Positions 1,317-1,843 of a DNA stretch of 63,325 nt are shown here, piece after piece. Each line of letters starts with the position of its first letter. The stretch's first letter is position 1. The stretch is from Flavobacteriales bacterium. Lineage in GTDB: Bacteria; Bacteroidota; Bacteroidia; JANQJC01. Location of the stretch: positions 1 through 63,325 of the forward strand of contig JANQJC010000088.1 of assembly GCA_028281825.1 (NCBI GenBank), written 5' to 3'. Under the pieces are notes generated by a model. The model saw only the letters and a program-made list of their open reading frames with translations, was not told the origin of the DNA and searched no databases. A program made the translations under genes and the position numbers.

Positions 1317-1350
1317 GGTCGGCGTATAACACCGTTCATTTTTTGGGCAC

Positions 1351-1383
1351 AAAAAAAGCTCCCAGTTTTTTGGGAGCTTTTTC
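1351..1383 (-). terminator. Rho-independent terminator after the degenerate tRNA-Ala copy
   Basis: A hairpin with stem agctccca/tgggagct is flanked by A and T runs on both sides, so it could work in either direction. It lies just 3' of the tRNA-like remnant on the minus strand. It is a near duplicate of the weaker hairpin beyond the intact tRNA at 1730-1762. Confidence 0.7.
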
Positions 1384-1388
1384 AAACT

Positions 1389-1457
1389 TGGTGGAGAATG
1401 CCGTATCCCGATAGCCATCGGGACGGCGACCTCTTCCCCGAATGTTTTCGGGGCATG
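1389..1457 (-). pseudogene. Degenerate tRNA-Ala copy: 3' half with loops replaced by hairpins
   Basis: On the minus strand this keeps the CCA end, the 3' acceptor strand, both outer T-stem halves and the 5' half of the anticodon stem of the intact tRNA at 1767-1843. The T-loop region is replaced by a 20-nt palindromic segment (core tcccgat-agc-catcggga). Part of the anticodon loop and stem is replaced by ccccgaatgttttcgggg. The D-arm and 5' acceptor strand are absent, so it cannot form a normal tRNA. The flanking terminator is duplicated with it, as in tRNA 3'-end duplications left by integrating elements. Confidence 0.75.
1404..1423. repeat. Short palindrome replacing the T-loop
   Basis: The segment can fold as tcccgat-agc-catcggga. 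It sits exactly where the intact tRNA has the T-loop sequence, with the gccg/cggc stem halves preserved on both sides. Confidence 0.6.
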
Positions 1458-1465
1458 CAAGCGCC

Positions 1466-1717
1466 CTATGTACTTTGACCGGAAATCAACCACTCAATAT
1501 ACTTTCTGCTTTTCTTTCGCTTTATTTCCAATTCTCTAGCATGTGCTTGCTCCCTTGTTGGGTATGATTGCGAGTATTTCAGTTCCCAATCACTTGCTTT
1601 AGACGTGTAGGAGGATTGCCCAGTATTGTGTTCCTCCATACGTTTATCAATATCGCTGGTGTATCCCACATAATAGCGGTTAAGCTCCTTTGAAAATATG
1701 ATGTACACATGAAACAT
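1466..1717 (-). CDS. Small GIY-YIG domain nuclease
   Basis: This 83-residue protein is a stand-alone GIY-YIG domain of the YhbQ/UPF0213 type. It has HVYIIFSKELNRYYVGYT (the GIY...YIG pair as YII...YVG), the conserved Arg in DIDKRMEEHN, and the ELEIKRKKSRKYIEWLI tail that carries the metal-binding Glu. Members are predicted metal-dependent DNA endonucleases, but most small free-standing ones have no known role. The gene lies between the intact tRNA-Ala with its terminator on one side and a degenerate copy of the same tRNA 3' half and terminator on the other, all in the same direction. This hints that the gene is, or was, a mobile unit targeting the tRNA. Activity is inferred from motifs only. 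Confidence 0.8.
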   Translation of the reverse strand: MFHVYIIFSKELNRYYVGYTSDIDKRMEEHNTGQSSYTSKASDWELKYSQSYPTREQAHARELEIKRKKSRKYIEWLISGQST

Positions 1718-1729
1718 GTTGGCTAAACT

Positions 1730-1762
1730 AAAAAAGCTCCCAGTTTCCTGAAAGCTTTTTCA
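1730..1762 (-). terminator. Weak terminator hairpin behind tRNA-Ala
   Basis: An aaaaaagct...aagcttttt hairpin lies just beyond the tRNA 3' end. The inner stem has decayed relative to its duplicate at 1351-1383 (cccagtttcctgaa versus cccagttttttggg). Some read-through into the GIY-YIG gene is therefore possible. Confidence 0.5.
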
Positions 1763-1766
1763 AACT

Positions 1767-1843
1767 TGGTGGAGAATGCCGGAGTCGAACCGGCGACCTC
1801 TTGCATGCCATGCAAGCGCTCTAGCCAGCTGAGCTAATCCCCC
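1767..1843 (-). tRNA. tRNA-Ala (anticodon GGC)
   Basis: A complete cloverleaf can be drawn on the minus strand. The acceptor is GGGGGAT/ATTCTCC with encoded CCA. The D-arm is GCTCAGCTGGCTAGAGC. The anticodon arm is CTTGC-ATGGCAT-GCAAG with GGC at the centre of the loop. The T-arm is GCCGG-TTCGACT-CCGGC. It is preceded by a TATTTTTG promoter box about 11 nt upstream. Fragments of the same tRNA occur on both sides (1389-1457, 1958-2021, 2135-2198), which makes this the single intact member of an array. Confidence 0.95.

Follow-up and report, generated by a model that had tools for sequence, protein, structure and literature searches.

Of the systems described so far, the closest in behaviour to the elements reported here is SegB, a free-standing GIY-YIG homing endonuclease of T-even phages. 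As presented in the SegB paper (PMC13096335) and the 2008 work cited there, SegB adjoins many tRNA types and its cleavage has been mapped within tRNA genes. PMC13096335 further describes tandem amplification of a tRNA-nuclease unit, and the nuclease 3' end there shares a short stretch of homology with the tRNA 5' region, which resembles the reading frames described below, whose ends run into tRNA sequence. The two systems differ in location, SegB being phage-borne and the present family chromosomal, and in content, as the T6 repeat unit carries tRNA-Tyr itself whereas the present family carries pseudo-tRNAs. Furthermore, no isotype preference was seen for SegB in that paper (PMC13096335), where the word palindrome is also absent, whereas the present family has a strong clade-wise preference. 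An intact GIY-YIG catalytic domain and a specific target locus with empty alleles, as in a SegB-like system, were both found here.

Fungal mitochondrial GIY-YIG genes bring a duplicate gene 3' end with them, and double-hairpin elements occur in the same kind of genome. As in the present family, the nuclease there lies beside a restored gene and a displaced 3' remnant, but the targets are protein genes of organelles; to our knowledge, these systems have no nuclease-specific palindrome. REP/RAYT systems share small palindromes with a dedicated nuclease gene and nuclease-less copies, and here too the palindrome is co-inherited with the nuclease. However, RAYT is a HuH/Y1 tyrosine transposase, whereas the nuclease of the present family is a GIY-YIG enzyme, with no HuH/Y1 transposase, and the target is tRNA genes; a survey of REP sequences (PMC3733652) does not mention GIY-YIG. 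The small GIY-YIG proteins of UPF0213 are similar in size and domain, but their known structures are of hypothetical proteins without tRNA context. We found no paper in the open-licence literature on chromosomal tRNA-linked GIY-YIG elements in Bacteroidota, and what we describe looks like a so far undescribed family of tiny tRNA-linked selfish elements.

The locus lies near one end of a 63,325-nucleotide stretch of DNA from a Flavobacteriales bacterium (contig JANQJC010000088.1; the whole stretch is called the window), and its features are collected in Table 1. ARAGORN found one tRNA gene in the window, the intact tRNA-Ala(GGC). A preliminary description of this DNA had proposed that the 3' end of this tRNA, its CCA and the following terminator are doubled around a GIY-YIG gene, with no integrase in the cargo, and both points held. 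A direct repeat of 55 nt (91% identity, same strand; 1349-1403 and 1727-1781) spans the tRNA 3' end, CCA and terminator on either side of the nuclease gene, and its recovery by a whole-window repeat search places it beyond chance; across the whole genome, the stretch matches this locus only, plus one 16-nt chance match. Between the repeats there is no integrase: apart from the nuclease gene, the only ORF of at least 60 aa there is a chance one that overlaps the pseudo-tRNA. In this the locus differs from a tRNA-site integrative element, which has an integrase gene within it.

Other parts of the initial picture needed revision. The second copy, taken for a 3' half only, does include the 3' end, but it starts in the anticodon stem (GCGCTTGCATG, 1464-1454) and carries two hairpins that had been missed; its first TAG doubles as the stop codon of the nuclease ORF. 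Insertion at the tRNA 3' end gave way to a different site: a palindrome marks it, and it lies within the tRNA, in the anticodon arm, the variable region or the T arm. Also missed were a like layout at tRNA-Met in the same genome and two upstream pseudo-tRNAs, which lie one each in tandem 177-nt units upstream of tRNA-Ala (2193-2017 and 2016-1840, 96% identical). In the distal one, the palindrome CCCCGAAAGCATTCGGGG (2163-2146) takes the place of the anticodon-stem tip. The promoter-like TATTTTTGCTG ahead of the intact tRNA stands ahead of both upstream pseudo copies as well (2216-2206 and 2039-2029); these boxes resemble Bacteroidota -7 boxes and may be promoters. Elsewhere in the window, a dispersed repeat of about 140-175 nt lies just past the second terminator (1199-1364), with five further genome copies at 79-88% identity, one beside another tRNA gene (contig C62), and a 209-nt direct repeat (37750-37958 and 39254-39462) is 93% identical at a spacing of 1504 nt.

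Table 1. Features of the tRNA-Ala locus in the window.
Feature	Position	Strand	Basis
Intact tRNA-Ala(GGC) with encoded CCA	1767..1843	-	ARAGORN; Rfam RF00005, 62 bits
Terminator-like hairpin 3' of the intact tRNA, imperfect copy	1730..1760	-	sequence reading
Small GIY-YIG nuclease gene, 83 aa	1466..1717	-	PF01541, E=2.8e-17
Downstream pseudo-tRNA, from about the anticodon stem through CCA	1389..1468	-	repeat and sequence reading
Palindrome CCCCGAAAACATTCGGGG in the anticodon arm of the downstream copy, instead of the anticodon-stem tip GCATGC	1436..1453	-	
Palindrome TCCCGATGGCTATCGGGA in the T arm of the downstream copy, instead of the T loop (tRNA segment GTTCGACTC)	1406..1423	-	
Terminator hairpin, second copy, perfect inverted repeat	1352..1382	-	
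Distal upstream pseudo-tRNA, tRNA-Ala 5' part, ending at GGTCGCC	2135..2198	-	
Proximal upstream pseudo-tRNA, layout as in the distal one, palindrome CCCCGAAAACATTCGGGG at 1986-1969	1958..2021	-	
Promoter-like TATTTTTGCTG ahead of the intact tRNA	1852..1862	-	putative, sequence resemblance

At the tRNA-Met locus (L001), one more of the genome's GIY-YIG genes lies behind tRNA-Met and is followed by the tRNA-Met 3' part, which bears TCCGGCAGATGCCGGA at the anticodon arm/variable region. The GIY-YIG genes L002, L004 and L005 come from another subfamily and lie away from tRNA genes. Extra partial copies were found near 3 of the genome's 30 tRNA genes, namely at the two GIY-YIG loci and at tRNA-Leu(CAA). 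At the latter (L353, contig C7), pseudo-tRNA-Leu copies lie upstream and have their palindromes in the D-arm region, but none of the genome's GIY-YIG matches is a nuclease gene at this locus. Separately, the palindrome TCCCGAAGAATTTCGGGA recurs in this genome away from tRNA genes, on the tips of larger imperfect hairpins (contigs C1, C12, C71, C75, C81, C100, C102 and C132).

A scan of GTDB contigs with peptides of the window protein returned 68 relatives. Most of these sit immediately behind a tRNA gene, usually tRNA-Ala, and have the 3' part of the same tRNA repeated after them. Since these queries came from the window protein itself, the search was redone with a 21-row profile, which placed the nuclease family in 186 of 395 genomes of the class (E<=1e-12). 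We took 125 loci from the top of the profile list and analysed 124; counts out of these 124 describe the best-scoring matches of a longer list. A tRNA of one of 15 amino-acid types lay within 130 nt on the same strand at 96 of these 124 loci, and tRNA-derived sequence lay within 250 nt at 115, compared to 0 of 30 control loci, which represent a related subfamily of small GIY-YIG genes in the same class (BLAST against tRNAs; Fisher 3e-24). Further GIY-YIG loci at tRNA fragments, which the preliminary description had proposed looking for, were thus found. With both searches pooled, an intact tRNA lay upstream at 127 loci, and at 106 of these at least 11 nt of that tRNA's own 3' part recurred exactly after the ORF.

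The architecture of the window locus recurs in these relatives. Upstream copies are 3'-truncated, and in some the junction with the tRNA leader falls in the T loop. Downstream copies lack the 5' end, and the local terminator is often repeated behind them. In the tRNA-Ala group, many ORFs stop inside the tRNA remnant, at the TAG of GGCTAGAGC. At several loci the ORF recurs in tandem at a spacing of about 320-460 nt, with decayed ORF pieces in the arrays, and one genome (G107) had 14 family matches in the profile search. Two loci (L220 and L257) depart from the usual order, in that the nuclease ORF seems to face an opposite-strand tRNA-Ala-like sequence rather than follow it. At L143, the ORF is followed by a pseudo-tRNA-Ala with a palindrome, and no intact tRNA lies in the 1500 nt upstream; this is possibly an orphan copy. 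A search of viral contigs, plasmids and phages for a vehicle gave no match.

The nuclease itself is well conserved. Residues Y5, Y16, R26, H30 and E62 (window protein numbering) form the GIY-YIG active site and are 97-100% conserved in 150 ORFs. Judging from a median dN/dS of 0.21 between close ORFs, a value to be read with the caveat that tandem copies may be homogenised by recombination, the nuclease is under purifying selection. By sequence match to the PDB, its best counterpart of solved structure is 1zg2 (UPF0213, E=3.6e-10), and no specific NCBIfam model names the family. The NCBIfam group I intron endonuclease model matched 14 of 21 members weakly, with the window protein far below the cut-off, which raises the question whether the locus is a group I intron of the tRNA anticodon loop that has degenerated and carries a GIY-YIG homing gene. 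Such introns have invaded bacterial tRNA genes and can carry homing endonuclease genes, according to PMC3984707. However, window positions 1100-2400 had no Rfam intron match at E<=1, the tRNA is uninterrupted, and nuclease and tRNA are separate genes. We rejected this reading as extremely improbable.

To relate the nucleases to their targets, we mapped tRNA isotype onto a tree of 124 proteins. The isotype label required 32 changes compared to a shuffled mean of 67, and none of 200 shuffles was as low. Clades associated with Met, Val, Asn and Leu (SH-aLRT of at least 95%) span many host families, and a single tRNA type such as Met is served by separate nuclease clades; as the tree has 80 columns, single forks should not be over-read. 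Target-type specificity by clade is thus apparent from these sequences. The host-family label required 93 changes compared to a shuffled mean of 104, so that part of the pattern is vertical, with a host signal on the tree that is weaker than the target-type signal.

The second feature that follows the nuclease is the palindrome. The tRNA 5' remnant and the 3' part are usually separated by an insert in the form of a near-perfect palindrome: a stem of at least 6 bp was found in 72 of 90 inserts of 12-32 nt, compared to 1.3% of shuffled inserts. Where it could be assigned, placement was in the anticodon arm (57), the T arm (15) or the variable region (3), and the tRNA segment replaced is nearly fixed within a nuclease clade; examples are ACCCAAAGGT or something close to it, which one clade replaces at most of its tRNA-Met loci, and CATCTGACTG (or CACATGACTG), which another replaces at tRNA-Asn loci. 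Both palindrome class and palindrome site cluster on the nuclease tree (0 of 200 shuffles for each), the classes having been set after the sequences were viewed. At Met-type loci, one clade has TCCGnC..GnCGGA and the other, where palindromes were found, TCCCGA or TTCCGA forms. TCCGCCGCGGCGGA is common to a Val locus (L208) and a Phe locus (L214) with neighbouring nucleases, and a TCACGC..GCGTGA palindrome occurs at several Pro-clade loci. Palindrome sequence goes with nuclease clade rather than with tRNA type.

The frequency of tandem units would also fit plain tandem tRNA duplication followed by decay, with the nuclease present by chance. We consider this very improbable given the tRNA-derived sequence at 115 of 124 loci against none of the controls, the excess of palindromes over shuffled inserts, and the fact that extra copies lie near only three tRNA genes of the window genome, two of them GIY-YIG loci. 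Chance duplication was ruled out by the locus and palindrome statistics.

The link between palindrome class and nuclease clade, irrespective of tRNA type, also suits an explanation along REP/RAYT lines, in which the palindrome would be the true mobile or cleaved unit, entering or replacing hairpin tips; tRNA genes would supply the hairpins for this nuclease family, and the pseudo-tRNAs would be host hairpins. Related palindromes do occur on hairpin tips elsewhere in the window genome. REP-like hairpins such as TCATTGCGAGG..GAAGCAATC flank the small GIY-YIG genes of the control subfamily (L002, L004 and L005; L294-L323); using motifs chosen after the loci were read, we found a REP-like motif within 200 nt at 22 of 30 control loci, compared to 1 of 30 stretches farther away. 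The control subfamily may be a GIY-YIG counterpart of RAYT/REP. However, most members of the tRNA-linked family copy the local tRNA 3' part, often with the terminator, which palindrome hopping alone would not do, and the near-fixed replaced segment within clades also argues against this explanation. We judge it unlikely for the tRNA-linked family, although it deserves to be kept in view for a reason given below.

A further check proposed in the preliminary description was to look for unoccupied sites, and these do exist. In one genus (g21; 36 genomes), a tRNA-Ser/Pro/Arg cluster carries the element at tRNA-Arg in 3 genomes; the other tRNA-Arg sites read comprised 20 clean ones without the repeat and 2 that keep just a remnant upstream. 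In two genomes of the genus, related ORFs lie at tRNA-Val. Across the class, 29 tRNA-Ala(GGC) sites, picked solely by tRNA similarity, comprised 4 with the ORF, 3 with remnants only and 22 clean ones; the relatives compared share only the class with the window genome, so these are empty sites in distant members of the class, not necessarily orthologous to the window locus. We rejected L122 and L123, from one genus, as an occupied/empty pair: L123 retains an upstream pseudo-tRNA and a stretch resembling the start of the ORF, and is more likely a site that lost its nuclease. Pseudo-tRNAs without an ORF also occur downstream at L118 and on both sides at L129, and L123 has them upstream only. The preliminary description had counted pseudo-tRNAs without a GIY-YIG gene against mobility. 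They do exist, but loss or decay of the nuclease is the more natural reading, and since the same kind of palindromes stand at the same tRNA arms, we read them as nuclease-less or decayed derivatives.

Both the persistence of such ORF-less pseudo-tRNAs and the purifying selection on the nuclease would be compatible with domestication, the pseudo-tRNAs and nuclease together serving tRNA supply, processing or defence, for example as decoys for anticodon nucleases. This is improbable: occupancy is patchy with clean empty sites in one genus, arrays contain decayed ORF pieces, pseudo-tRNAs truncated at one end would form no full cloverleaf, and separate nuclease clades serve one tRNA type. A different question is how an occupied locus would escape its own nuclease. 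The presumed target arm of the intact tRNA is unaltered at occupied loci. Self-protection through a recoded anticodon stem was rejected, as the recoded stem also occurs at element-free sites and has no link to occupancy. The unaltered target arm and the lack of a link between recoding and occupancy are why the REP-like explanation, though unlikely, was retained.

Taken together, these data favour a homing-type selfish element that consists of a nuclease and its cognate palindrome, targets tRNA genes and keeps a working tRNA. The element in the window is probably one member of a widespread family of such small elements, which occupy tRNA genes in Bacteroidota and closely related groups. The suggestion made at the outset, a minimal element of homing type that uses tRNA genes, is well supported: the layout recurs at many types of tRNA, empty sites exist, target specificity follows nuclease clade and the nuclease is conserved; the details of the site did not stand. 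Each element would pair a GIY-YIG nuclease (about 80-95 aa) with a palindrome of 14-20 bp typical of the nuclease clade, tied to one tRNA type, and would leave an intact tRNA beside one or more pseudo-tRNAs in which an arm or the variable region is swapped for the palindrome. In the mechanism we propose, the nuclease would break DNA at the tRNA gene arm or at its own palindrome, and repair would proceed by recombination through tRNA sequence on both flanks of the palindrome. In this way, a further tRNA gene of matching type would receive copies of nuclease and palindrome, or the two would be amplified in tandem, with a complete tRNA restored or kept. As no insertion was caught between near-identical genomes, we infer actual movement, and likewise the cut site, palindrome binding and the order of events, from sequence patterns.

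A broader and more tentative possibility, to which we give somewhat less than even weight, is a class of mobile DNA not described before, whose GIY-YIG nucleases, each with its own palindrome, spread through hairpin-forming host sequences. Its tRNA branch would replace an arm in a spare copy while the working tRNA is kept, and a sister branch would reside on REP-like intergenic hairpins, making the class a GIY-YIG counterpart of REP/RAYT.

Although it has no specific NCBIfam name, the nuclease family occurs in about half of the genomes sampled from the class. If the proposed mechanism holds, these elements would be parasites that reside stably at tRNA genes, which are essential and highly conserved, and do so without destroying them. 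They would also supply a range of nucleases for which the genome itself reveals the type of tRNA targeted and the cognate palindrome.
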